Positions 128-60,946 of a stretch of DNA of 64,000 nucleotides are shown piece after piece. This stretch comes from Ruminococcus sp. (GTDB taxonomy: Bacteria > Bacillota > Clostridia > Oscillospirales > Ruminococcaceae), in NCBI GenBank assembly GCA_017519145.1, contig JAFWTA010000027.1, positions 60,476 through 124,475 on the forward strand. Direction: 5' to 3'. The translations under genes and the position numbers were made by a program. How positions within the stretch are numbered: the stretch's first letter is position 1; each line of letters opens with the position of its first letter. The notes below the pieces were generated by a model. That model was not told where the DNA came from. It saw nothing but the letters and a program-made list of their open reading frames with translations, and did no database searches.

Positions 128-1244
128 AAAGCTTGAAATTCTTGAAGTCAACAAGGCTTATTATCCCCATATAGGCGGCATAGAGACCATTATCCGCCAG
201 TATTCCGAGGAACTGAGCAAAAACGAAAAGGCTCATGTGAGAGTACTGGTGTGCCGCGACGGCAGAGGCAGGACGATACGCGAGAAGATGCGCGGCGTTG
301 ATATCACCCGTGCAGGCAGCCTCGGCACATATTTCTCATGTCCGCTGTCATTCTCATTCTTCCGCCACTTCCGCAGAATGGCGAAAAAAGCCGACGTTGT
401 ACACATACACGTTCCGTTCCCTCTTGCGGACGCAGCACTGCTGCTGTCGGGCTTCAAGGGAAAGGTGATAGTCTCATGGCACAGCGACATCGTGAAGCAG
501 AAAAAGCTCATGCTGTTCTACAAGCCCTTTATGCGCTATCTGCTGAAAAGGGCTGACGTTGTACTGACAGCCACGGAGGGTCATGTGAAGCATTCACTGT
601 ACCTCCCCGAATACAGCGAAAAATGCAGAGTCCTCCCCTACGGCATAATCCCGGAGGAGTACCTTGCAGTACCGAGAAAGCCCGTCCTCACGGAAAGGGC
701 ATCGGACAAGAGCTGTGTAAAGGTGTTCTTTACGGGCAGACTTGTCTACTATAAGGGCGTAGATGTGCTGCTGAAGGCATTCACAAAAGTGAAGGGCTGC
801 GAGCTGTTCATCGCAGGCACAGGTGAGCTGGGCGACGAGCTCAAATCCTACACCGCTGCTCACGGCATGGAGGAAAAAGTCCATTTTCTGGGGTTTCTCC
901 CCGATGAGGAGCTGCGTCAGGCTTATGCGGACTGCGATATATTCGTGCTGCCCTCGGTGGCTCCCAGCGAGGCATTCGGCATAGTACAGCTGGAAGCCAT
1001 GGTCTACGGAAAGCCCGTAATAAATACTGCTCTCCCCTCGGGAGTGCCCTATGTCAGCCTTGACGGCGAGACAGGTCTCACGGTGAAGCCCAAGTCCCCC
1101 AAGGCTCTGGCAGAAGCCATCAACCGCCTTGCAGGAGACAGTGAGCTCCGCGAAAAACTGGGAAAAGCTGCCGCAGTCCGTGTGACTGAGGAGTTCAGCG
1201 AGGAGAGCATTCAGAAACGTCTTTACGATATACTCAGCGAATAA
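120..1244 (+). CDS. GT4-family glycosyltransferase
   Basis: A 374-residue protein with the two-domain GT-B fold expected of GT4 retaining glycosyltransferases. The N-terminal domain has the early motif YYPHIGGIE (about residues 15-23), where the Gly-Gly loop contacts the donor phosphate. The C-terminal nucleotide-sugar domain begins near residue 195 (VKVFFTGRLVYYKGVDVLL) and holds the family signature PSEAFGIVQLEAMVYGKPVI (about 282-301) with its two glutamates seven residues apart. No signal peptide or membrane span is visible, so it acts at the cytoplasmic face. It overlaps the preceding glycosyltransferase by 8 bases and is followed after 12 bases by a sugar-nucleotide reductase-like gene, which suggests assembly of a deoxyhexose-containing surface glycan. 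The specific linkage is unknown. Confidence 0.85.
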   Translation: MSKKLEILEVNKAYYPHIGGIETIIRQYSEELSKNEKAHVRVLVCRDGRGRTIREKMRGVDITRAGSLGTYFSCPLSFSFFRHFRRMAKKADVVHIHVPFPLADAALLLSGFKGKVIVSWHSDIVKQKKLMLFYKPFMRYLLKRADVVLTATEGHVKHSLYLPEYSEKCRVLPYGIIPEEYLAVPRKPVLTERASDKSCVKVFFTGRLVYYKGVDVLLKAFTKVKGCELFIAGTGELGDELKSYTAAHGMEEKVHFLGFLPDEELRQAYADCDIFVLPSVAPSEAFGIVQLEAMVYGKPVINTALPSGVPYVSLDGETGLTVKPKSPKALAEAINRLAGDSELREKLGKAAAVRVTEEFSEESIQKRLYDILSE

Positions 1245-1256
1245 GGAGGCAGACTT

Positions 1257-2192
1257 TTGAGAGCATTGATTATCGGCGCCGCAGGCTTCGTGGGAGGCTA
1301 TCTCATCAGAGAGCTCAGCGCCTTCGGCTGGGACGTCCACGCCACCTGTCTGCCCAATGAGACCGTGAGCGAGAGCTGTCCCGTACACCATCTGGATATA
1401 CTTTCGGCAGAGGATATCGCTCCCCTGCTGAATGAGGTGAAGCCCGATGTGGTCTATCATCTGGCTGCACAGAGCTCCGTGGCGCTTTCGTGGAGAAAGC
1501 CTCAGCTCACCGCAGAAATAAATGTCATCGGCACGATAAACGTCCTTGAAGCCCTCCGTACAGCCGAAAAACAGGACATCAGGACAATTCTCATAGGCTC
1601 GGGAGAGGAATACGGCTATATCCGCAAGGACGCCTGTCCCCTTTCGGAGTCGGAGCCACTCAATCCGGGAAATATCTACGCCGCCACCAAAGCCTGTCAG
1701 GGCATGATAGGCGAGATATACGCAAGGGCGTACAAAATGGATATCGTCATGGTCCGCGCCTTCAACCACTCGGGTCCGGCACAGAGCAGCATCTTCGTTA
1801 TCTCCGACTTCTGCCGCCAGATAGCCGAGATTGAAAAGGGCATGAAGGAGCCCGTCATCAGTGTGGGCAATCTGTCCGCAAAGCGCGATTTCACCGATGT
1901 CCGCGACGTTGTCAGAGCATACAGGCTCCTCGGCGAAAAGGGCGTCAGCGGTGCAGTCTACAACGTGGGCAGAGGCAGAGCAGTGGATATACAGTTCATA
2001 CTGGATACCGCCCTTTCCTTTGCGAAGCTCCCCATCGAGGTCAGACAGGACCCGGACCGCATGAGAGCCTCGGATATCCCACTCATCGAACCCGATGTGT
2101 CACGCATCGCTGCCGACACAGGCTGGTCCGCCGAGATATCCATGGAGCAGACCGTTGAGGATACCCTCTGTTATTGGAGAAATAATATATAA
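1257..2192 (+). CDS. NAD(P)-dependent SDR, GDP-4-keto-6-deoxymannose reductase-like
   Basis: A 311-residue extended short-chain dehydrogenase. The Rossmann glycine motif IGAAGFVGGYL lies at residues 6-16, and the catalytic pair appears as YAATK (about 141-145). The sequence VRAFNHSGP following it is characteristic of the GDP-mannose dehydratase/RMD branch that makes GDP-rhamnose or related deoxyhexoses; this assignment rests on family resemblance. The start is TTG at 1257, preceded by AAGGAGG at 1243-1249; no in-frame ATG fits the N-terminal Rossmann motif. It follows the glycosyltransferase by 12 bases and probably supplies that enzyme or a neighbour with an activated deoxysugar. It could also be an epimerase of the same superfamily. 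Confidence 0.75.
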   Translation: MRALIIGAAGFVGGYLIRELSAFGWDVHATCLPNETVSESCPVHHLDILSAEDIAPLLNEVKPDVVYHLAAQSSVALSWRKPQLTAEINVIGTINVLEALRTAEKQDIRTILIGSGEEYGYIRKDACPLSESEPLNPGNIYAATKACQGMIGEIYARAYKMDIVMVRAFNHSGPAQSSIFVISDFCRQIAEIEKGMKEPVISVGNLSAKRDFTDVRDVVRAYRLLGEKGVSGAVYNVGRGRAVDIQFILDTALSFAKLPIEVRQDPDRMRASDIPLIEPDVSRIAADTGWSAEISMEQTVEDTLCYWRNNI

Positions 2193-7638: not shown

Positions 7639-9048
<1,410 letters not shown>

Positions 9049-36143: not shown

Positions 36144-36172
36144 TTGAAATATTATAACATATGTGGTATAAT
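36144..36172 (+). promoter_or_regulatory. Promoter of the nadA-hydE operon
   Basis: TTGAAA at 36144-36149 and TATAAT at 36167-36172 with a 17-base spacer, 62 bases before nadA. Confidence 0.75.
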
Positions 36173-36233: not shown

Positions 36234-37166
36234 ATGAACGTTCGTGAACTTCAGGACAGTATCATAAAACTCAAAAAAGAGACAAATACCGCCATCCTCG
36301 CACACTGCTATCAGGCAAGAGAGATATGCGAGATCGCAGACTTCGTGGGTGACAGCTATAAGCTCAGCGTTGACGCAAAAAATATCGCTGAGGAAAATAT
36401 CCTTTTCTGCGGAGTTCACTTCATGGCTGAGACCGCAAAAATGCTCTCGCCGCAGAAGCGTGTATTCCTTTCCAACAGGCACGCAGGCTGCCCCATGGCT
36501 GAGCAGATGGACAGGGAAATGATAAGTGCTGTCCGCGAAATGGAGCCCGACCGCACTGTTGTGGCTTACATCAACACCACTGCTGCATTAAAGACCGTTT
36601 GCGACGTCTGCGTTACCTCGTCAAGCGCTCTGCGTATCGTGAGAGCTCTCGACACCGACAAGATACTCTTCATCCCCGACTGCAATCTGGGAGACTATAT
36701 AAAGAAGCAGTGCCCCGAAAAGGATATCAAGCTCCTTCAGGGCGGCTGCCCCACTCATGCAAGGATAACAGTCAAGGAGGTACTGGCTGCAAAGGAGGAG
36801 CACCCCGATGCGCTTTTCCTCGTACATCCCGAGTGTACTCCCAAGGTGGTAGAGCTGGCTGACTATGTGGGCTCCACCACAGGTATCATGGACTATGCAA
36901 AGAAGTCCGACAGGAAGGAGTTCATCATCGGCACGGAAAATTCCATCGTGGAGCACTTGCAGTATGACTGCCCCGAAAAGAAATTCTATCCCGTCAGCCG
37001 TGACCTTGTCTGTCACAATATGAAGCTCACCACCCTCCCCGATATCTACAATACTCTCGTCGGTATCGGCGGCGGCGACGGCGACGCTTTCGAGATACTC
37101 ATGGACGATGAGCTCATCGCTCAGGCGAGAAAGTGCATAGATGAAATGATAAGGCTGGGCGGCTGA
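36234..37166 (+). CDS. nadA: Quinolinate synthase
   Basis: A 310-residue iron-sulphur enzyme that condenses iminoaspartate with dihydroxyacetone phosphate in NAD synthesis. The three cluster ligands are visible: Cys86 in HAGCPMAE, Cys201 in HPECTPK and Cys260 in VCHNMKLTT. HCYQ near residue 24 and GVHFMAETAKML (60-71) are substrate-binding. This is the short NadA form. GAAAGGAAG precedes the ATG. nadB and nadC, its usual partners, are not nearby; instead hydE starts one base after its stop. Confidence 0.92.
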   Translation: MNVRELQDSIIKLKKETNTAILAHCYQAREICEIADFVGDSYKLSVDAKNIAEENILFCGVHFMAETAKMLSPQKRVFLSNRHAGCPMAEQMDREMISAVREMEPDRTVVAYINTTAALKTVCDVCVTSSSALRIVRALDTDKILFIPDCNLGDYIKKQCPEKDIKLLQGGCPTHARITVKEVLAAKEEHPDALFLVHPECTPKVVELADYVGSTTGIMDYAKKSDRKEFIIGTENSIVEHLQYDCPEKKFYPVSRDLVCHNMKLTTLPDIYNTLVGIGGGDGDAFEILMDDELIAQARKCIDEMIRLGG

Positions 37167-37167
37167 T

Positions 37168-38202
37168 ATGACGGAACTTGTCGAAAAGCTTTACAATACG
37201 GGAGACCTCTCCGACAGCGAGCTGAAAGCTCTCATCGAGACCGACGACAGCAGCGCTGCGGAGCTCCTGCGCAGATACGCCGATGAGACAAGGCAGAAAA
37301 GCTACGGTAAAAAGGTCTTTCTCAGAGGACTTATCGAGGTCTCAAGCTATTGCAGGAATGACTGCCTTTACTGCGGTATCCGCCGCAGCAACAAGGAGGC
37401 TGACCGCTACCGCCTCTCCCGCGAGGAGATAATGAGCTGCTGCGAAAACGGCTACGGACTGGGCTTCCGCACATTCGTAATGCAGGGCGGAGAGGACAGC
37501 TTCTTCACCGATGACTTCATGTGCTCGGTAATATCGGAAATAAAGGAAAAATACCCCGACTGCGCTGTTACACTGTCACTGGGAGAGCGCTCTTACGACA
37601 GCTACAAGCGCATGAAGGAGGCAGGTGCGGACAGATACCTGCTCCGCCACGAAGCCGCCTCAGAGGAGCTGTATTCAAAGCTCCACCCTGCGGAGATGAG
37701 CCTTGCCCACCGCAAGGAATGTCTCTTTCAGCTCCGCGAGCTGGGCTATCAGGTAGGCGCAGGCTTCATGGTAGGCGCTCCGCACCAGACCACCGACCAC
37801 ATCATCGCGGACCTGCGCTTCCTTCAGGAGCTGCGCCCCCAGATGATAGGAATAGGTCCCTTTGTGCCCCACCATAACACTCCCTTTGCGGAGGAAAGCG
37901 GCGGCACTCTCACACTTACCCTGAGACTTCTGGGCATTCTCAGGCTCATGTTCCCAAAGGTGCTGCTGCCTGCTACCACTGCCCTCGGCACTATCGCTCC
38001 CAACGGCAGGGAGCTGGGGCTGAAAACAGGCTGCAACGTCGTTATGCCCAACCTCTCGCCTGTAAAGGTGAGGAAGAAATACGACCTGTACGACAACAAG
38101 ATATGTACGGGCGAAGAAGCCGCCGAATGCCGCGGCTGCCTGCAAAGACGCATAGAGTCCGCAGGCTATGAGGTGTCCGCAGAGCGCGGAGACTGCATAT
38201 AA
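37168..38202 (+). CDS. hydE: Radical SAM protein, HydE family
   Basis: A 344-residue radical SAM enzyme. The cluster motif is CRNDCLYC with cysteines at 62, 66 and 69, in the context LRGLIEVSSYCRNDCLYCGI that is typical of HydE/PylB-type proteins; VGAGFMVGAPHQTTDHI is also a HydE hallmark. HydE builds part of the di-iron ligand set of [FeFe] hydrogenase. No hydF, hydG or hydrogenase gene lies in the window. It begins one base after nadA and precedes four tandem U32-like genes, so a different substrate is possible. The C-terminal CRGCLQRR may bind a second cluster. Confidence 0.85.
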   Translation: MTELVEKLYNTGDLSDSELKALIETDDSSAAELLRRYADETRQKSYGKKVFLRGLIEVSSYCRNDCLYCGIRRSNKEADRYRLSREEIMSCCENGYGLGFRTFVMQGGEDSFFTDDFMCSVISEIKEKYPDCAVTLSLGERSYDSYKRMKEAGADRYLLRHEAASEELYSKLHPAEMSLAHRKECLFQLRELGYQVGAGFMVGAPHQTTDHIIADLRFLQELRPQMIGIGPFVPHHNTPFAEESGGTLTLTLRLLGILRLMFPKVLLPATTALGTIAPNGRELGLKTGCNVVMPNLSPVKVRKKYDLYDNKICTGEEAAECRGCLQRRIESAGYEVSAERGDCI

Positions 38203-38286: not shown

Positions 38287-39231
38287 ATGAGAGTTCGTTT
38301 CCACCTTCCCGATTTTTCGGGTAATTTCAAGCTCAATCTCCTCTTTGCGGAAATGCTGAAGCACCGCCCCGAATTTTTCCGCGAGGGCGTGGAGATAGCT
38401 TCATTTTACGGCGTATTCCCGCCCTCCATCTGGAACGGCGGCAGAACTCAGGGCGGAGTCTGTGACAAGACCTTCGTAAAGCAGGTCATCAAGACCTTCA
38501 ACGAGAGAGGCATCCCCCTCAGATTTACATTCACAAACCCTGCATTGGAGAAAAAGCACCTCAGCGACCAGTTCTGCAACATGGTGCTGAATATGGCGAA
38601 CAACGGTCTCAATGAGGCTATCGTCATGTCTCCCCTCCTTGAGGACTATATCCGCAGGAACTTCCCCGACTACAAGCTTACCAGCTCCACCTGCAAGCGC
38701 CTTGATACACTTGAGGGACTTCTGGGCGAGCTGGAAAAGGATTACCATATAGTGGTCATGGACTACGACCTGAACAACCGCTTCGAGCTCCTTGAGAAGA
38801 TACCTATGGAGTACAGGCCCCGTATCGAGTTCCTCTCAAATGCCTGCTGTGAGCCGGGATGTCCCAGACGCTCCGCCCATTATCACTCCATAGGCGTCCA
38901 GCAGATAGCCTATAACGAGCATATAAAGAAGTACCCCAATCTCCCCTTCAATGTGGAGAAGTACGACCCCGACCACTTCCGCGACTGCCCCTACTCACAG
39001 AGAGGTATCTTCGAGATAAGGAACCTCCGCACACATATCTCCCCTGAGGATATCTGGGAGAAGTATGTGCCCATGGGCTTTGAGCAGTTCAAGATAGAGG
39101 GAAGAACGGCAAGTCCCATAAACGTGCTGGAAACATATATGTATTACATGGCAAAGCCCGAATGCCGCGACGAAGCAAGGTTCACCCTGCTGAAGACCAT
39201 GGAAAATTCAGGCGCATTGTCATTCAAGTAA
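38287..39231 (+). CDS. U32-like Cys-rich protein, tandem copy 1
   Basis: A 314-residue protein, first of four tandem paralogues. The C-terminal EDIWEKYVPMGFEQFKIEGR (about residues 267-286) matches the U32 signature in which an aspartate-led helix precedes KIEGR. Six cysteines are invariant in all four copies: 59, 97, 136, 188, 192 and 234, the 188/192 pair forming C-x3-C. U32 proteins such as UbiU, UbiV and TrhP use four cysteines for a [4Fe-4S] cluster in O2-independent hydroxylations; a cluster here is inferred. The gene starts with AAGGAGAATAAAAC 85 bases after hydE. It has no signal peptide. The classical peptidase name of U32 should not be taken literally. Confidence 0.7.
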   Translation: MRVRFHLPDFSGNFKLNLLFAEMLKHRPEFFREGVEIASFYGVFPPSIWNGGRTQGGVCDKTFVKQVIKTFNERGIPLRFTFTNPALEKKHLSDQFCNMVLNMANNGLNEAIVMSPLLEDYIRRNFPDYKLTSSTCKRLDTLEGLLGELEKDYHIVVMDYDLNNRFELLEKIPMEYRPRIEFLSNACCEPGCPRRSAHYHSIGVQQIAYNEHIKKYPNLPFNVEKYDPDHFRDCPYSQRGIFEIRNLRTHISPEDIWEKYVPMGFEQFKIEGRTASPINVLETYMYYMAKPECRDEARFTLLKTMENSGALSFK

Positions 39232-39242
39232 GGAGGATAATC

Positions 39243-40199
39243 ATGCGAGTAAGATTTCATCTCCCTGATTTTACGGAGCATTTCCGCTTCAATCTCGTCT
39301 TTGCGCATATGATGAAGAACCGCCCCGACTACTTCCGCGAGGGCGTTGAGATAGCTTCATTCTACGGAGCCTTCCCTCCCTCATTATGGAACGGCGGCAG
39401 GACCATCGGCGGTCAGTGCGACGAGAGCTTCATCAAGGGCGTCATAAAAAGCTTCAACGACCTTGGCATACCGCTGAGATTTACCTTTACTAACCCCGTG
39501 CTGAAAGAGGAGCACCTCTATGACCCCTTCTGCAACAGAGTCATGGAGCTTGCCAACAACGGCTTCAACGAGGTCATCGTGAACTCTCCCCTGCTGGAGG
39601 ACTACATCCGCAAGACCTATCCCGACTACAAGCTGACCAGCTCTACCTGCAAGCGCCTTGACACCGAGGACGGCTTCCTCAATGAGCTGAAAAAGGACTA
39701 CAGCATCGTGGTCATGGACTACGACCTGAACAATAAATTCGATATCCTTGAAAAGGTGCCCATGGAGGACAGACCCCGCATCGAGTTCCTGTCCAACGCC
39801 TGCTGCAACCCGAAATGTCCCAACCGCAAGCTGGAATACGACCTTATCGGCGAGCAGATGATATACTACAACAAGCATCTGAAGGAGCACCCCGAGCTTC
39901 CCTTTGACATCAATAACTACACCGAGCGCAACGTCAACAAGCTCATACACTGCAACTGCCGTCAGCGTACCCTATATGAGATAAAGGACCTGCCCACCCA
40001 TATCTCTCCCGACGATATCTGGGGCAAGTATGTGCCCATGGGCTTTGAGCAGTTCAAGATAGAGGGCAGGACCGCAGGAAACCTCTACCTCATAGATATC
40101 TATATGTACTACATGACAAAGCCCGAATGCCGCGACGAGGCAAGAATGATGTTCTTCTACAACCTCGACTCAAACGGCGTTATCCAGTACGAAAGCTAA
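39243..40199 (+). CDS. U32-like Cys-rich protein, tandem copy 2
   Basis: A 318-residue paralogue of the preceding gene; 45 of its first 60 residues match copy 1 in a hand alignment. It keeps the six family cysteines, the STCKRLD motif and the C-x3-C pair as CNPKC, and ends with DDIWGKYVPMGFEQFKIEGR. Near the last ligand it has an extra pair (HCNCR), so a fifth thiolate is nearby. AAGGAGG precedes ATG 39243; the upstream open frame lies inside copy 1. The gene follows copy 1 after 11 bases. Confidence 0.7.
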   Translation: MRVRFHLPDFTEHFRFNLVFAHMMKNRPDYFREGVEIASFYGAFPPSLWNGGRTIGGQCDESFIKGVIKSFNDLGIPLRFTFTNPVLKEEHLYDPFCNRVMELANNGFNEVIVNSPLLEDYIRKTYPDYKLTSSTCKRLDTEDGFLNELKKDYSIVVMDYDLNNKFDILEKVPMEDRPRIEFLSNACCNPKCPNRKLEYDLIGEQMIYYNKHLKEHPELPFDINNYTERNVNKLIHCNCRQRTLYEIKDLPTHISPDDIWGKYVPMGFEQFKIEGRTAGNLYLIDIYMYYMTKPECRDEARMMFFYNLDSNGVIQYES

Positions 40200-40211
40200 G
40201 GAGGCGATATC

Positions 40212-41168
40212 ATGAGAGCAAGATTTCATCTTCCGGGACTTACAAAGAACTTTTCCTTCAATCTCATATTCGCACATATGATGAAAAACTGTCCCTATTT
40301 CTTCCGCGAGGGCGTGGAGATAGCTTCATTCTACGGCATATTCCCCCCTGCTGTCTGGAACGGCGGAAGGTCCGTAAGAGGCAGATGCGATGAGAGCTAT
40401 GTAAAACAGGTCATAACCACCTTCAACAATATGGGCATTCCTGTCCGCTTTACATTCACAAATCCCTGTATCACAGAGGAGCTCCTCCACGACCCTTTCT
40501 GCAACAGGATACTTGAACTGGCTTACAACGACCTCAATGAGGTCATCGTCAATTCAGCCCTACTTGAGGACTACATACGCGACAAGTACCCCAACTTCAA
40601 GCTGACCAGCTCTACCTGCAAGCGCCTTGACACCGTTGACGGTCCCATAGGCGAGCTGAAAAAGGATTACAGCATAGTGGTGCTGGACTACGACCTGAAC
40701 AATCAGTTCGACCAGCTGGAGAAGATACCCGTTGAGGACAGAGGCAGATGCGAGATACTCTGCAACACTCTCTGCAATCCCAAGTGCAAGATGCGTAAGG
40801 AGCATTACAGGCTCATAGGCGAGCATTCCATCGCTTACAACGACTATGTGAACAGCGGAAGCACCGAGCCCTTTGACCTGAACAAATATTATGAGATAAA
40901 CGAGGAAAACGTCATAAACTGCGGCTGTTTCACCAGAAACGCCTTTGATATAAGAAAGCTCCCCACCCATGTGAGCCCCGACGATATCTGGGAGAAGTAC
41001 ATCCCCATGGGCTTTGAGCAGTTCAAGCTCGAGGGCAGGACCGCAGGCAGGATATTCCTCACAGAGAACTATCTCTACTACATGGTAAAGCCCGAGTGCC
41101 GCGATGAAGCCCGTCTTATGCTCCTGTATAATCTGGAGCGCAACGGAATAATCCGCGTGGATAAATAA
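40212..41168 (+). CDS. U32-like Cys-rich protein, tandem copy 3
   Basis: A 318-residue paralogue. It is the most Cys-rich of the four, with NCGCF at the last ligand and further cysteines at NCPYFF, NPCITE, RCEILCN and CKMRK, while keeping the six invariant ones. The shared barrel strands VEIASFYGIFPP, RFTFTNP and NEVIVNSALLEDYIRDKYP are intact. Substitutions in otherwise shared segments (IPVEDRGRCEILCN in place of IPMEYRPRIEFLSN) suggest a distinct partner or substrate. AAGGAGGC precedes the ATG, 12 bases after copy 2. Confidence 0.7.
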   Translation: MRARFHLPGLTKNFSFNLIFAHMMKNCPYFFREGVEIASFYGIFPPAVWNGGRSVRGRCDESYVKQVITTFNNMGIPVRFTFTNPCITEELLHDPFCNRILELAYNDLNEVIVNSALLEDYIRDKYPNFKLTSSTCKRLDTVDGPIGELKKDYSIVVLDYDLNNQFDQLEKIPVEDRGRCEILCNTLCNPKCKMRKEHYRLIGEHSIAYNDYVNSGSTEPFDLNKYYEINEENVINCGCFTRNAFDIRKLPTHVSPDDIWEKYIPMGFEQFKLEGRTAGRIFLTENYLYYMVKPECRDEARLMLLYNLERNGIIRVDK

Positions 41169-41180
41169 GAGGTAGAGAAT

Positions 41181-42119
41181 ATGAAAGCAAGATTTCACCT
41201 CCCCGGTATAGCCACCCATTTCAAGTTCAACCTTATCTTCGCCACGGTGCTGGAGCAGTATCCCCAGTACTTCCGCGATTTCGAGATAGCCTCATTCTAC
41301 GGAGCCTTTCCCCAGTCCATCTGGAACGGCGGAAGGACTCAGGAGGGCTTATGCGACAAGAAGTTCGTGAAGATGGTGCTGAAGGCGTTCAACGACAGGG
41401 GCATACCCGTCCGCTTCACCTTTACAAATCCCGCTCTTGAAAAGAAGCACCTCAATGACAAGTTCTGCAACATGGTCATGAGCCTTGCCAACAACGGTCT
41501 CAACGAGGCAATAGTTGTGTCCCCCATACTGGAGGACTATATCCGCAAAAACTATCCCGATTTCAAGCTGACAAGCTCCACCTGCAAGCGCCTTGACGAC
41601 GGCGAAAGACTGGCTCAGGAGCTGGAAAAGGATTACAGCATAGTGGTGGTGGATTACGACCTCAACAACAAGTTCGATATCCTCGAAAAGCTTCCCCACA
41701 AGGAGAAGTGTGAATTTCTGGTCAACTCAAACTGCCGCCCTGCCTGTCCCAACAGGAAACAGCATTACTACAACGTGGGCGTCCAGCAGATAAACTACGC
41801 CAACCATATGCGCAAGTACCCCGACCAGCCCTATGACCCCATAATCTTCGGTGACGGAGCCAATCAGAACTGCCCGTTTTTCACCAGGAACCTCTTTGAG
41901 ATAAGAGACCTGAGCACAAATATTAAGCCCGCCGACATCTGGGACAAGTACCTCCCCATGGGCTTTAACCAGTTCAAGATCGAGGGCAGGACAGCATGGC
42001 TGTTCAACCTCATCGAGACCTACATATACTATCTGGCAAAGCCTGAATACGCCGATATCGCAAGATATACCCTCATCGACTTCTGCTATGAGAACGACGT
42101 TCTTTCAGTAAACGAATAA
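41181..42119 (+). CDS. U32-like Cys-rich protein, tandem copy 4
   Basis: A 312-residue paralogue, somewhat shorter near the N-terminus (FRDFEIAS in place of FREGVEIAS) and more divergent after residue 170, but with all six invariant cysteines, the STCKRLD motif and ADIWDKYLPMGFNQFKIEGR. The last-ligand region reads NCPFFTRN. The CRDEAR motif shared by copies 1-3 after the KIEGR block is replaced by YADIAR, so that extra Cys is not required. AGAGGTAGAG precedes the ATG. It is followed 15 bases later by the esterase gene. Confidence 0.7.
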   Translation: MKARFHLPGIATHFKFNLIFATVLEQYPQYFRDFEIASFYGAFPQSIWNGGRTQEGLCDKKFVKMVLKAFNDRGIPVRFTFTNPALEKKHLNDKFCNMVMSLANNGLNEAIVVSPILEDYIRKNYPDFKLTSSTCKRLDDGERLAQELEKDYSIVVVDYDLNNKFDILEKLPHKEKCEFLVNSNCRPACPNRKQHYYNVGVQQINYANHMRKYPDQPYDPIIFGDGANQNCPFFTRNLFEIRDLSTNIKPADIWDKYLPMGFNQFKIEGRTAWLFNLIETYIYYLAKPEYADIARYTLIDFCYENDVLSVNE

Positions 42120-42134
42120 GGAGATTTTCGCATA

Positions 42135-43649
42135 ATGAAAGCTGCTGCTGTATTCAGTGATAACATGGTGCTGCAAAGAGAGCGGTACGTCCGTATCTTC
42201 GGCACCTGCACCAATAACGAAAAGGTCATAACCGTCTCCGTGCCCGAGCTGCTCATCTCCGTGAGAGCCATCATCAGAAAAGGCAGATGGGAGGCTGTAC
42301 TGCCCCCTATGACGGAGTGCAGCAAATGCACCCTCGAGATAGCCTGCGGAGCCATAAGGAAGGTGTTCCGCAATGTGGCTATCGGAGAGGTCTGGCTGGC
42401 AGGCGGTCAGTCCAACATGGAATTTGAGCTCCGCAACGACAAAAACGGAGTCCGCGAGCTGGTCAGCTGCGCCGAGGAGGACGTTAGATATTACTACACT
42501 CCCAAATGCGCCATGCCCGAGGAAATAGAGGAAGCCGAAAAGCATACGGGCTGGAGCCTGCCCTCTGCGGATAATTCCGCGGCATGGTCGGCTGCGGGGT
42601 ATTACTTCGCAAAAGAGCTGAGCCGCAGGCTGGGCGTTACCGTAGGCATCATAGGCTGCAACTGGGGCGGCACCTCCGCCTCTGCGTGGATGAGCCGCGA
42701 GTACCTCGAGCAGGACAGCCGCCTCCGCCCCTATGTGGAGGAGTATGACAAGGCTGTAAAGGGCAAATCACGCAGGAAAATGATAGCTGAGTACGACGAG
42801 TATACGGCGTATCAGGAGGGCTGGGAGCAGCGTGTGGCTGAGTGCTATGACGCTGACCCCGATATAAAGTGGCCCGATGTTGTGGCTAAATGCGGCGAAA
42901 ACAGGTATCCCGGTCCCCACGGCATTAAAAATCCCATGCGCCCATGCGGTCTGTATGAGACAATGGTCAGCAGAGTGGCACCCTATACTCTCCGCGGCGT
43001 GCTCTGGTATCAGGGCGAGTCCGACGACCACCGCCCCCAAGTATACAGCGTGCTGCTGAAGGCTCTCATCGAGAACTGGCGTCGCGACTGGAAGGACGAC
43101 GAACTGCCGTTTATCATCGTGCAGCTGCCCATGTTCAAGTACAGGGACGATCCCGACACAAAGAGCTGGGCGCTCATAAGAGAAGCGCAGGAAAAGGTGT
43201 TCCGCACCGTTAAGAACACGGGACTTGCTGTCTGCCTTGACTGCGGAGAATTCAACAATATCCACCCCACCGACAAGGAGCCCATAGGCCACAGACTGTA
43301 CCTTCAGGCAATGAGCGAGGTCTATTCTCAGATGAGCAGGAGCGAGTCCATGCCGCCCATGTACGACGGCTTTGAGATAAGAGGAAGCGCTATGCTCATA
43401 CACCTTGCCAACGTGGGAAAGGGTCTGGGCGGAAAGGACGAGAACTGCCTTGAGGGCTTCGAGCTGGCAGGCAGCGACGGTAAGTTCTATCCTGCACAGG
43501 CAAGGGTAGCCCTGCCCTATATAGAGCTGAGCTGCGAGAAGGTGAAAGCCCCTGCCGCAGCCCGTTTCAAGTGGACAAACTATGCGGACGTAGGTCTTTT
43601 CGGAGTCAACGGGCTCCCTCTCGCGCCATTCCGCACATATACCGACTAA
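42135..43649 (+). CDS. Sialate O-acetylesterase-like SGNH hydrolase
   Basis: A 504-residue SASA-family esterase. The catalytic serine is in LAGGQSNMEFEL (about residues 92-103), the block-III motif is LWYQGESDDH, and the histidine is in NNIHPTDKEPIGHRL; all three SGNH elements are present. No signal peptide is visible, so it should act in the cytoplasm on imported acetylated sugars rather than on the cell wall. It is the fifth gene after hydE, and the short spacing and AAGGAG site place it in the same operon as the U32-like array. The natural acetylated substrate is unknown. Confidence 0.82.
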   Translation: MKAAAVFSDNMVLQRERYVRIFGTCTNNEKVITVSVPELLISVRAIIRKGRWEAVLPPMTECSKCTLEIACGAIRKVFRNVAIGEVWLAGGQSNMEFELRNDKNGVRELVSCAEEDVRYYYTPKCAMPEEIEEAEKHTGWSLPSADNSAAWSAAGYYFAKELSRRLGVTVGIIGCNWGGTSASAWMSREYLEQDSRLRPYVEEYDKAVKGKSRRKMIAEYDEYTAYQEGWEQRVAECYDADPDIKWPDVVAKCGENRYPGPHGIKNPMRPCGLYETMVSRVAPYTLRGVLWYQGESDDHRPQVYSVLLKALIENWRRDWKDDELPFIIVQLPMFKYRDDPDTKSWALIREAQEKVFRTVKNTGLAVCLDCGEFNNIHPTDKEPIGHRLYLQAMSEVYSQMSRSESMPPMYDGFEIRGSAMLIHLANVGKGLGGKDENCLEGFELAGSDGKFYPAQARVALPYIELSCEKVKAPAAARFKWTNYADVGLFGVNGLPLAPFRTYTD

Positions 43650-43667: not shown

Positions 43668-44438
43668 ATGCTTTTAGCAGTAGATATCGGAAATACCAAC
43701 ATCGTTTTCGGCTGTGTTGACGACAAGGACGAGGTAGTTCTCTTTGAGAGGATCAGCACAGACCACAATGCCACAGCCGCAGAATACGCTGTACTCATCA
43801 AGACCATCCTCGAGATGAACAGCTTCAACGTCTCTGACATTGACGACGCTATCATGTCATCGGTAGTGCCCTCTGTGACCAATACCGTCAAGGAGGCTGT
43901 CCGCAAGCTCTTCGGAGTTGACGTAATGATGGCAGGTCCCGGAGTAAAGACGGGACTCAATATCCTCATCGACAACCCTGCACAGCTGGGAAGCGATCAG
44001 GCTGTGGACGCTGTTGCGGCTATAAACCAGTACCCTGTTCCCCTCATCATCATTGATATGGGGACCGCCACAACTCTCTCTGTTGTTGACAGCAAGAAGA
44101 ACTACCGCGGCGGACTTATCCTCACGGGCATGAAGGTAGCTGCCGACGCTCTCACAGCAAGAACAGCACAGCTCCCCAAGGTGAATTTTGAGGTGCCGCC
44201 TCATGTTATCGGCACAAACACCATCGACTGTCTCAAGAGCGGCATACTCTACTCCAACGCCAGCGCCCTTGACGGCATAATCGACCGCATAGAGGACGAG
44301 CTGGGTGAGAAGTGTACAGCAGTGGCAACAGGCGGACTTTCCGAGCTGGTAGTTCCCCTTTGCAGGAGAAAGATAATACTTGACAACAACCTCCTCATAA
44401 AGGGGCTGGCTATAATCTACAGGAAGAACAAGAAGTGA
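43668..44438 (+). CDS. coaX: Type III pantothenate kinase
   Basis: A 256-residue ASKHA-fold kinase that starts CoA synthesis. The phosphate-1 motif is DIGNTNIVFG (residues 6-15), the central motif GSDQAVDAVAA precedes DMGTATTLSVVD (about 125-136), and the substrate-loop glycines at YRGGLILTGM are intact. CoaX enzymes are not feedback-inhibited by CoA. GGAGGAAG precedes the ATG. It follows the esterase by 18 bases and is the last gene of the operon. The 178 bases before the next gene carry only a short repeat and that gene's promoter. Confidence 0.92.
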   Translation: MLLAVDIGNTNIVFGCVDDKDEVVLFERISTDHNATAAEYAVLIKTILEMNSFNVSDIDDAIMSSVVPSVTNTVKEAVRKLFGVDVMMAGPGVKTGLNILIDNPAQLGSDQAVDAVAAINQYPVPLIIIDMGTATTLSVVDSKKNYRGGLILTGMKVAADALTARTAQLPKVNFEVPPHVIGTNTIDCLKSGILYSNASALDGIIDRIEDELGEKCTAVATGGLSELVVPLCRRKIILDNNLLIKGLAIIYRKNKK

Positions 44439-44561
44439 TGTTAAAGCCCTTAGCCTTTAGCCGTATAAAAAACAATGCCCCGAAGCTTATGTGCGGCGCT
44501 GATAAATAAGTTTTAGCCATAGTATTTCTGATATGCAGTCAGAAGTACTGTGGCATTTTTA

Positions 44562-47178: not shown

Positions 47179-48165
47179 TTAATATTTGATCTTAGGCATT
47201 GCAGGATATCCCCACTGGTTGGGGCCCACGCTGGGACGGCATAAGAATATTATAAGTATGATACCATAAACGAGTATGAACAGGCTGGTAAAGCACACCA
47301 CCGCACCAAAAGCTTCAAGGCTTTGTGCAGCAGCTGCTGCTATCATAAAGCCTATGCCGGCAATGGCGATGAAAACCGTGCCCAATACCCACCAGCCTGA
47401 TTTGCCGATGTCATGGAGCCTTCTTACCTGTGATGAAAGATTGGGCAGGAAGAATACTATCGACTCTGCTAAGCTGATGACCGATGTTATAACAGTGGCA
47501 TCAGAGCCGAGTGATGTTTTCAGTATGGACGTGAACATACTAACACATATTCCGACTAAAAAAACGAACAGATAGCCGAACCAGTATTCGCTTCGTGTGG
47601 AACGTCCGCTGAAGTTCACATAGTTCTTGAAATAGAGCTTGATCGCCTCGCCGAAGCCTACATATCTGGGGCTTCCGTCCGACTGATTGTAGAATGACGG
47701 GTCAAGTCCGTAGATAGGAGGAGCACCGTAGGGCTGTCCGTAAGGCTGACCATAGCCGCCGGGCTGACCGTAGTTGCTGCGCTGTCCGTAGTTATTGGGC
47801 TGTCCGTAATTGTTAGGCTGTCCGTAGTTATTGGGCTGACCGTAGTTGTTAGGCTGTCCATAATTGTTGGGCTGTCCGTAATTATTGGGCTGACCGTAAT
47901 TGTTGGGCTGACCGTAATTGTTAGGCTGACCGTAATTGTTTGGCTGTCCGTAATTGTTAGGCTGTCCGTAGTTGTTAGGCTGTCCGCCGTTTGTCGGCTG
48001 CACACTGCTGTCCTGCTGTGCCTGATCTGTTGTCGGCTCCGCAGATGCCTTTGAAGCTGAGAAGAGATCGTCCATTGCCCCCGACGCATCCTCCAGTGCA
48101 GCTCCGCAGTTTTCGCAGTATCTGTCGCCTATCTTGTTTTCAAAATTGCAGTATTTACACTTCAT
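47179..48165 (-). CDS. Zinc-ribbon DUF805 membrane protein with repeats
   Basis: A 328-residue protein. The N-terminus is a zinc ribbon ([19 protein letters not shown]). It is followed by a low-complexity stretch, then eleven exact copies of the hexapeptide PNNYGQ and a few degenerate ones (about residues 63-150), and then a DUF805 membrane domain with four helices (about 190-320), recognised from [18 protein letters not shown]. The repeat is Asn/Gln/Tyr-rich and would be disordered or sticky. AAAAGGGGG precedes the ATG, and the DNA behind the repeat is an 18-base tandem array. Confidence 0.85.
47782..47979 (-). repeat. 18-base minisatellite, eleven units
   Basis: Eleven tandem 18-base units encode PNNYGQ. 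The units differ only at a few mostly silent positions (for example GTAATT/GTAGTT and GGG/AGG), so protein identity is kept while the DNA drifts. Slippage would change the number of repeats in frame without breaking the gene. Confidence 0.95.
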
Positions 48166-59446: not shown

Positions 59447-60946
59447 ATGATGCTCAGAAAATTCCTCGCAGGTGTTTTCTGTACAGTTATTGCTGCTTCT
59501 GCATTTACATCATGCAGCAGTCAGACGAGCGGCAGCTCTGACACCGCGGAGGTAACTACCGCAGCAGAGCCTACAACAGAAGCTGTTACCACTCAGCCGC
59601 TCACAGCGGAAAATGTTGACATCGCAAACTTCACAGCCCCCGAAAAGGGCGATACTATAATCATCATGAACGTCAAGGACTACGGAACGGTCAAGTTCAG
59701 GCTCTTCCCCGAGTATGCGGACAGAGGCGTTGAGAACTTCGTCGAGCTGGCTAAAAAAGGCTACTACGACGGTCTCAAGTTCCACAGAGTCATCAACGAC
59801 TTTATGATACAGGGTGGAGACCCCCTCGGCACCGGCACAGGCGGCGAATGCGTCTGGGGCGGAAAGTTCGACGGCGGCACAGACCCCCATCTTATCCATG
59901 CAGCAGGCGCAGTTGCCTACGCAAACAGCGGAAGCACATCCACCAACGGCAGCCAGTTCTACATCGTTACGGGTACCACCTATACCGATGAGGATTTCGG
60001 TGAGATCGCCAAGAAAGGCTTTGCTTTCTCCGACAACGCAAAGGAGATATACAAGAAAGCAGGCGGCGCACCGTGGCTCGACGGAGGCTATACCGTTTTC
60101 GGTCAGGTCATCGACGGTCTGGATATTGTATTCAAGATTCAGAATGTTGCCACCGACCCCCAGAACAATATGCCCTATAAGGACGTCATCATCGACTCCA
60201 TTACAGTCGGTGAGTACGACGGAGAGGATATACACTGGTATATCGACGAATACGAGTCCTTTGACCCCGAGGAGATAAAACAGGCTTCGGCAAAGGAAGA
60301 AGTAGAGATAAAGAACTTCACAGCCCCGAGAGAGGGCGAGACCATAGTCAGCATGAAGCTGAAGGGCTACGACAGGGAAGTTAAGATAAAGCTCTTCCCC
60401 GAGTACACCGAAAAAGGTATCGAAAACTTTACCACTCTTGCGGAGCGCGGCTACTATGACGGCCTTACCTTCCACAGAGTCATAAAGGATATGCTCATCG
60501 AGGGCGGCGATCCCAACGGCGACGGTACAGGCGGCGAGTCCATTTACGAGCACGGATTTGACGACAGCTCAGACCCCCACCTCATCCACGTTTCGGGAGC
60601 AGTTGCCTACTCCAATGAGGGTTCTACAAGTACAAACGGAAGCCGTTTCTTTATTGTCACAGGCGAAAAGCTCTCTGAGGATGAGGCGGCGGAAATGGAA
60701 TCCTACGGATATTCCTTTACCAAGGGCGAAAAGGAGCTCTACACCGAGTACGGCGGTATCCCGTGGTTCGACGGCAGCTATACCGTTTTCGGTCAGGTCT
60801 TCGACGGTCTTGATATCATCTTCGATATCCAGAACTGCGACGTTGACGATAACGGCAAGCCCAAGAAGGACGTTGTCATCGAAAAGATGACCGTCACCAA
60901 GTATAACGGTGAGGACGTCCGCTGGCATATTTCCGATTATGAATGA
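59447..60946 (+). CDS. Lipoprotein with two cyclophilin domains
   Basis: A 499-residue predicted lipoprotein (lipobox FTSC, Cys23) with a short Ser/Thr-rich tether and two tandem cyclophilin-type peptidyl-prolyl isomerase domains. Domain 1 (about residues 60-260) keeps LKFHRVINDFMIQGGD and the NGSQFYIVTG motif, so it should be active. Domain 2 (about 285-495) keeps FHRV but reads MLIEGGD, with the active-site Gln replaced by Glu, and NGSRFFIVTG. The internal duplication is obvious to the eye. It likely folds exported proteins at the outer face of the membrane. AAGGAGTGATAT precedes the ATG. Confidence 0.9.
   Translation: MMLRKFLAGVFCTVIAASAFTSCSSQTSGSSDTAEVTTAAEPTTEAVTTQPLTAENVDIANFTAPEKGDTIIIMNVKDYGTVKFRLFPEYADRGVENFVELAKKGYYDGLKFHRVINDFMIQGGDPLGTGTGGECVWGGKFDGGTDPHLIHAAGAVAYANSGSTSTNGSQFYIVTGTTYTDEDFGEIAKKGFAFSDNAKEIYKKAGGAPWLDGGYTVFGQVIDGLDIVFKIQNVATDPQNNMPYKDVIIDSITVGEYDGEDIHWYIDEYESFDPEEIKQASAKEEVEIKNFTAPREGETIVSMKLKGYDREVKIKLFPEYTEKGIENFTTLAERGYYDGLTFHRVIKDMLIEGGDPNGDGTGGESIYEHGFDDSSDPHLIHVSGAVAYSNEGSTSTNGSRFFIVTGEKLSEDEAAEMESYGYSFTKGEKELYTEYGGIPWFDGSYTVFGQVFDGLDIIFDIQNCDVDDNGKPKKDVVIEKMTVTKYNGEDVRWHISDYE

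Follow-up and report, generated by a model that had tools for sequence, protein, structure and literature searches.

Oxidases of the U32 superfamily are a recently recognised route to C–O bonds without oxygen, and few of their members have a known function. Among the described systems, Escherichia coli UbiV is part of an O2-independent hydroxylase and shows how a U32 protein holds a [4Fe-4S] cluster through a CXnCX12CX3C motif, in which one cysteine is remote from the other three (PMC6747719). TrhP1 and TrhP2 of Bacillus subtilis (YrrO and YrrN) are tandem U32 paralogues of one operon that carry the peptidase U32 motif, act on U34 of transfer RNA (tRNA) and always co-occur (PMC6599085). Systems of the UbiU/UbiV, TrhP and RlhA types depend on prephenate (PMC11574389, PMC6599085). 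Here we analyse four tandem genes, U1 to U4, on contig JAFWTA010000027.1 from the genome of a rumen bacterium, Ruminococcus sp. (GenBank assembly GCA_017519145.1), within the 64,000-nucleotide stretch from position 60,476 to 124,475 of the forward strand; this whole stretch is called the window. The genes belong to a family that is real and well conserved and is a distant relative of the O2-independent oxygenating enzymes; it lies outside the coverage of Pfam, NCBIfam and the PDB as searched, and is present in 120 of 125 genomes of the genus. We favour, at a probability of about 0.5, the reading that U1–U4 are paralogues of a stand-alone O2-independent branch of the U32 oxidases that carries a [4Fe-4S] cluster.

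U1 to U4 form a conserved tandem array

The four genes lie on the plus strand of the window at 38287–39231 (U1, the core copy of the array, 314 residues), 39246–40199 (U2, 317 residues), 40212–41168 (U3, 318 residues) and 41181–42119 (U4, 312 residues), with spacers of 12–14 bp and a ribosome-binding-like stretch ahead of every start. The start of U2 was set at the methionine of its RFHLP motif, which follows such a site, and the longer listed open reading frame begins at 39162. Identity to U1 is 65% for U2, 59% for U3 (the lowest) and 62% for U4. All four proteins contain RFHLP, SSTCKRLD, a C-x3-C pair and a K-(I/L)-E-G-R block, and share exactly six invariant cysteines (C59, C97, C136, C188, C192 and C234 in U1 numbering), so that the tandem layout, the protein lengths, the motifs and the six shared cysteines reported in a preliminary description of this DNA were seen in every copy.

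The window's genome is of the R. flavefaciens type (3.17 Mb in 65 contigs), and loci with a 99% identical U1 occur in strains ND2009 and SAb67. The four-gene array is also found in independent R. flavefaciens isolates, with gene-by-gene identities of 90–99% at one locus (L005) and 98–99% at another (L006), and is therefore no assembly artefact.

The family is very probably a distant branch of the U32 superfamily

Profile searches for relatives gave 284 matches, which fell to 273 when partial sequences and to 221 when identical ones were taken out (198 core, 11 divergent and 12 remote). The divergent members, a sister group of about 31–37% identity, include a fifth gene of the window's genome (C20:72307-73164), and the remoter relatives met in genome searches are U32-like proteins. 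A family profile of the 198 core and 11 divergent rows was compared with a U32 profile (UbiU, UbiV, TrhP, RlhA and two U32 proteins from the window's genome) and with 12 intermediate U32-like proteins, hand-picked from the remote matches plus L188, a protein of the same genome. The resulting E-values refer to profile pairs and not to a database: the family matched the intermediates at E 1.7e-24 over 237 columns, the intermediates matched the U32 profile at E 4.9e-14, and the family matched the U32 profile directly at E 1.7e-6. Eight unrelated decoy profiles, treated equally, reached E 0.025 or worse against the family and 1.1e-4 or worse against the intermediates, where the best decoy was the HydE profile. 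HydE, like other radical S-adenosylmethionine (radical-SAM) proteins, has a barrel-type fold. In the aligned blocks R53 corresponds to R35 of UbiU, the strand-5 S-S-T regions coincide and FKIEGR faces VKIEGR; besides the profile kinship, the family thus has the KIEGR block, the strand-2 arginine and the S-S-T strand in common with the TrhP, RlhA and UbiU oxidases. On these comparisons U1–U4 are very probably a separate, distant branch of the U32 superfamily.

The 12 intermediates are uncharacterised U32-like proteins with an N-x2-C-x3-C motif (L127, L131, L132, L183, L188 and seven more). All of them share with the family the C-x3-C pair, N185, Y260, K269 and R273, and 11 of the 12 share N163. 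Unlike U1–U4, 10 of the 12 are longer, most have a C-terminal block of four cysteines, and five of the seven remote relatives scanned, six of which matched PF01136 (Peptidase_U32), passed its cut-off. L188 itself (G000:C15, about 17.2 kb; frame 292–1986, minus strand) has 564 residues, and its U32-like N-terminal domain is followed by ten proline/glycine-rich repeats and, at the C-terminus, by a segment that contains cysteines.

Plasmid records of Lachnospira eligens (two) and Treponema saccharophilum encode relatives that carry the annotation 'hypothetical protein'. Judging from its Pfam score, the family would be missing from the 12-group U32 tree, and the accessible parts of PMC11574389, PMC6747719 and PMC6599085 do not describe it. 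A literature search that left most subscription journals outside found no paper joining U32 with R. flavefaciens or with biosynthetic gene clusters; for tandem paralogues it brought up a single review, on Yersinia ruckeri.

Conserved cysteines suggest an iron–sulphur cluster with its own ligation

Across the family the six cysteines fare unequally. The pair C188 and C192 is kept in all 198 core, all 11 divergent and all 12 intermediate proteins; C234 is kept in 198 of 198 core proteins and 9 of 12 intermediates, and C97 in 197 of 198 core and 11 of 11 divergent ones. C136 is found in 196 of 198 core proteins but is a threonine in all 11 divergent ones and is lacking in the 12 intermediates, and C59 is kept in only 66% of the 198 core relatives, so the invariance that was first described stands among U1–U4 and does not extend to the family. 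The conserved pattern in U1 reads C97 ... C188-x3-C192-x41-C234. Like UbiV, the family combines a small single domain (292 residues in UbiV, 312–318 here) with a distant cysteine in the N-terminal half and a C-x3-C pair (PMC6747719); unlike UbiV, its third cysteine lies downstream of that pair and not upstream. Because the arrangement is nearer to the CXnCX12CX3C of UbiV than to the common CX6CX15CX3C, family members are best read as [4Fe-4S] proteins, and we consider it probable that they carry an iron–sulphur cluster. By this analogy, we propose C97, C188, C192 and C234 as putative [4Fe-4S] ligands, the cluster probably being held by the C188-x3-C192 pair together with the downstream C234 and the distant C97.

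Several observations weigh against the reading of U1–U4 as cluster-bearing U32 oxidases. Against a curated PF01136 cut-off of 22.4 bits, U1, U2 and U4 score 18.4, 18.7 and 14.3 bits (E 0.0014, 0.0011 and 0.026) and U3 gives no match, which puts all four outside the curated Peptidase_U32 family; the suggested U32 membership accordingly holds as distant superfamily kinship by profile comparison and fails for the curated family. Pfam gave no match for the two divergent members scanned or for one remote member, the NCBIfam search with U1–U4 returned chance-level matches only, and sequence and profile searches of the PDB returned none or chance-level ones. When the family profile is set against single sequences, the E-values are 0.35 (UbiU), 0.24 (UbiV, no significant pairwise match), 0.039 (a host U32 protein), 0.021 (RlhA) and 0.0055 (TrhP), little or no clearer than decoys that start from 0.099. 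The U32 oxidase motif CX6CX15CX3/4C is absent, and no CX6C pair is conserved in the family, unlike in the TrhP, RlhA and UbiU oxidases. C234 is unaligned in all 11 divergent rows, whose downstream cysteine aligns elsewhere. Finally, C97 is lacking in 12 of 12 intermediates, and its role as a ligand is therefore a guess.

Array size and single-member genomes argue against a fixed four-subunit machine

Tandem U32 paralogues in one operon recall TrhP1/TrhP2, and the preliminary description suggested a heteromeric system of four co-expressed copies. Here, however, the arrays count one to four genes, and their proteins have another cysteine motif. In the 80 loci of the genus examined, arrays of one, two, three and four copies occur at 30, 37, 2 and 11 loci, respectively; these are lower bounds, as some of the loci end at contig edges, and at 29 of the 30 single-copy loci the sequence continues for at least 2.5 kb beyond the gene. 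Among these 30, three copies (L077, L081 and L084) are dispersed and have no hydE. In a tree of 93 sequences, drawn from 237 retained at 280–345 residues, each of the four genes has an ortholog clade of its own: the nine-row groups of U2, U3 and U4 each have 100% bootstrap, and the U1 clade holds one gene from nearly every hydE-linked locus in the tree. All four genes are under purifying selection, with ratios of nonsynonymous to synonymous substitution (dN/dS) of 0.03–0.12 against three relatives. We read the duplication of the branch as having occurred in Ruminococcus flavefaciens.

A single complex of U1–U4, in the manner of the UbiU–UbiV heterodimer or of B. subtilis TrhP1/TrhP2, draws support from the 17 loci of the R. 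flavefaciens type (L005–L021): eight have four copies, nine have one and none has two or three, and the tree of the neighbouring genes shows at least three switches between the two states. (At L007 the fourth gene did not pass the length filter of the tree and dN/dS analyses and was counted present from its profile match.) Since U2–U4 come and go as a block and are under purifying selection, they may function as a set; the 12–14 bp spacers suggest co-expression, and TrhP1 and TrhP2 provide the precedent of a tandem U32 pair in which each paralogue is needed (PMC6599085). But an exchange of whole haplotypes between strains would explain the all-or-none pattern equally, and over the 80 loci two-copy arrays are the commonest, followed by single copies, with other combinations of clades. 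Moreover, genomes at least 90% complete hold a single family match in five cases in the genus list and nine in the family list, the latter including the one-contig genome G117. Array size varies and single-match genomes exist, and a fixed four-subunit machine is therefore unlikely; nor did the family show an obligate partner paralogue of the UbiU–UbiV type, being found also as single copies. We thus regard one heteromeric enzyme as unlikely, and the fixed heteromer of four is not supported.

In seven genomes with a U1-only array, one to three additional core members lie elsewhere, and U1 is therefore not the sole member there. A recombinant U1/U4 chimera at single-copy loci was considered and rejected: nine single copies are U1-like over their whole length. 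Strain FD-1 (G1099, the genome of L022) has a three-gene array with equal scores at both C3:111441-114442 and C10:11719-14720, which means a genuine duplication of the segment or redundancy in the assembly.

The association with hydE looks like inherited gene order

The gene for HydE, an [FeFe]-hydrogenase H-cluster radical-SAM maturase (37168–38202, plus strand; TIGR03956, 564 bits against a cut-off of 254.6), lies directly upstream of U1, and the same neighbour was found at 75 of the 78 genus loci with enough sequence; a strict rule accounts for 67 of these, and eight were read from the gene lists (seven with overlapping starts and L037 with a broken hydE call). This adjacency is what speaks for a system in which the proteins aid H-cluster assembly or a sulphur relay together with HydE. 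We scanned a sample of 197 genomes of the taxonomic family (thresholds E 0.001 for the family and E 1e-60 for hydE) and found the family in 30, hydE in 99 and both in 21. hydE is indeed commoner where the family is present (21 of 30 against 78 of 167 genomes; Fisher p 0.028, relatedness not corrected). Nevertheless, hydE has no match in 9 of the 30 genomes that are positive for the family, among them G002, G021, G090 and G171 at 99–100% completeness (G090 and G171 at 100%), and 78 genomes contain hydE but no family member. Where both occur they may be far apart: 0.5 Mb in the one-contig G117, and on different contigs in G158.

Outside the syntenic place the link disappears. At 40 wider loci around dispersed, divergent or remote members (L145–L184), no homologue of hydE, nadA, the esterase or coaX lies close to the member, and among L085–L144, the window's copies aside, hydE is seen only at L086, a genus member. 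Twenty Pfam-annotated neighbours of dispersed copies have no consistent common function; they include a GMP synthase, a leucine-rich-repeat protein, an amidohydrolase, a methionine gamma-lyase, a chemotaxis receptor, a TrkA-type protein, DegV and a cellulase. Unrelated neighbours, together with the lack of hydE, nadA, esterase and coaX homologues at the wider loci, are the profile of a stand-alone enzyme. No result pointed to the sulphur relay of the preliminary description. On distribution and location alike, a HydE-linked function, as first envisaged for the array, was rejected; we hold such coupling to be very unlikely, and hydE and nadA beside the array look like inherited gene order, not joint function.

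Proposed function

In the favoured reading of a stand-alone U32 oxidase branch, each protein is probably a single-domain (beta/alpha)8-barrel, as its U32 kinship suggests, and most likely oxidises or hydroxylates its own substrate without O2, by analogy with UbiU/UbiV, TrhP and RlhA. U1 would probably work alone or as a homo-oligomer, because single-member genomes show that one member can suffice. U2–U4 would be older duplicates that purifying selection has preserved; they are probably transcribed together with U1 and probably differ in their substrates. That the family catalyses hydroxylation or a similar oxidation is plausible by this analogy, if somewhat short of even odds. Bolder still is the idea of a new U32 oxidase branch with its own cluster ligation, in which the core enzyme U1, expanded by three specialised partners (U2–U4) that are gained and lost as a block, would yield a multi-paralogue anaerobic hydroxylase of rumen bacteria; we offer it tentatively and consider it rather unlikely.

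TrhP and RlhA, two characterised U32 oxidases, modify RNA (PMC6599085), and a stand-alone gene amid unrelated neighbours would suit an RNA modifier, so the proteins might be additional members of this kind that act on tRNA or ribosomal RNA bases. The genome, however, already encodes a canonical U32 protein (L185) and a 690-residue frame with two U32 matches (L186, L187), presence in only 30 of 197 genomes is patchy for core RNA modification, and RNA positions would hardly account for as many as eight matches in one genome (some of them split or divergent); hydroxylases of RNA or ribosomes are quite unlikely. A peptidase is suggested by the Pfam name of the superfamily and by that name only. 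Characterised U32 members with conserved cysteine clusters are oxidases (PMC11574389, PMC6747719), and U1–U4 retain cysteines and the KIEGR block, which leaves the peptidase reading scarcely tenable.

The family's cysteine pattern departs from the U32 norm and can therefore readily be used to test the requirements of a U32-type cluster site. U1–U4 are named targets for deletion combined with metabolomics or RNA mass spectrometry; the finding alone settles no long-standing question.

Distribution and dispersed members

Beyond the genus, genomes with a match number 30 of 197 in the taxonomic family, as already mentioned, 21 of 391 in the class (10 of the 21 being remote U32-like matches only) and 5 of 398 in the phylum sample, each count including the window's genome. 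Among 12 dispersed core copies that were fetched, nine are mutually 80–99% identical and therefore form one further ortholog group, several of its members having a panBCD-like gene order to one side. At six loci of the R. flavefaciens type (L193, L196, L197, L200, L201 and L203) the dispersed member stands about 170–180 bp upstream of a panB-panC-panD-like gene order, for which Pfam assignments were made at L200 and the other loci were judged by gene order and length. On the other side of the L200 member is a sigma/RsgI-like pair, with similar-sized genes in the other loci. In Lachnospira eligens, a divergent member (L210:5986-6903) directly follows a cobyric acid synthase gene in a cobalamin run on a 627-kb plasmid. 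Together with the coaX-like gene near the array, these neighbours are a lead, and a lead only, to cofactor synthesis.

At L183 (6619–15615), a remote U32-like gene (7916–8998) sits amid tailoring-type genes, which we take from their sequences, without a family search, to be pyridoxal-phosphate decarboxylase-, GHMP-kinase-, aminotransferase- and methyltransferase-like and, in two cases, radical-SAM-like; the run could be a biosynthetic cluster that uses a U32-like enzyme. Genes with GGDEF/EAL domains adjoin dispersed members at L084, L146, L152, L198 and L211 (Treponema). A link to cyclic-di-GMP was dropped without a formal test: GGDEF is abundant (3–66 matches in 12 genomes), and the adjacency is probably due to chance. 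As to anti-phage defence, PADLOC gave no match for U1–U4 and PHROGs one chance-level match; three short unannotated records of the phage collection encode relatives of 34–49% identity.

The surrounding transcription unit

The array appears to belong to a transcription unit that runs from nadA to a coaX-like gene. Its likely first gene is nadA (quinolinate synthase, 36234–37166, plus strand; PF02445, E 1.3e-114), preceded by a promoter-like site at 36144–36172 that has 11 of 12 matches and a TG before the second hexamer (a consensus match only), and followed by hydE. Downstream of the array come a SASA-type acetylesterase gene (42135–43649, plus strand; PF03629, E 2e-22), 15 bp after U4, and, 18 bp further on, the likely last gene (43668–44438, plus strand), presumably coaX-like (type III pantothenate kinase), a name given from its sequence without a family search. 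A terminator-like stem-loop of 17 pairs follows at 44516–44554 on the plus strand, likewise a consensus match only. Gaps inside the unit are 1–18 bp, save for 84 bp ahead of U1.

The downstream genes vary between loci. The esterase is next after the array at only 42 of the 72 genus loci with enough sequence; a coaX homologue lies downstream at 17 of the 80 loci. An orphan nadA in need of a new iminoaspartate source was rejected, as nadB-like genes are present in the genome (440 bits, with a cut-off of 452.75, and 272 bits). Elsewhere in the window, the minus strand carries at 47179–48165 an open reading frame that begins with paired CxxC motifs and has about ten tandem repeats of the NNYGQP type; its C-terminal half is hydrophobic.

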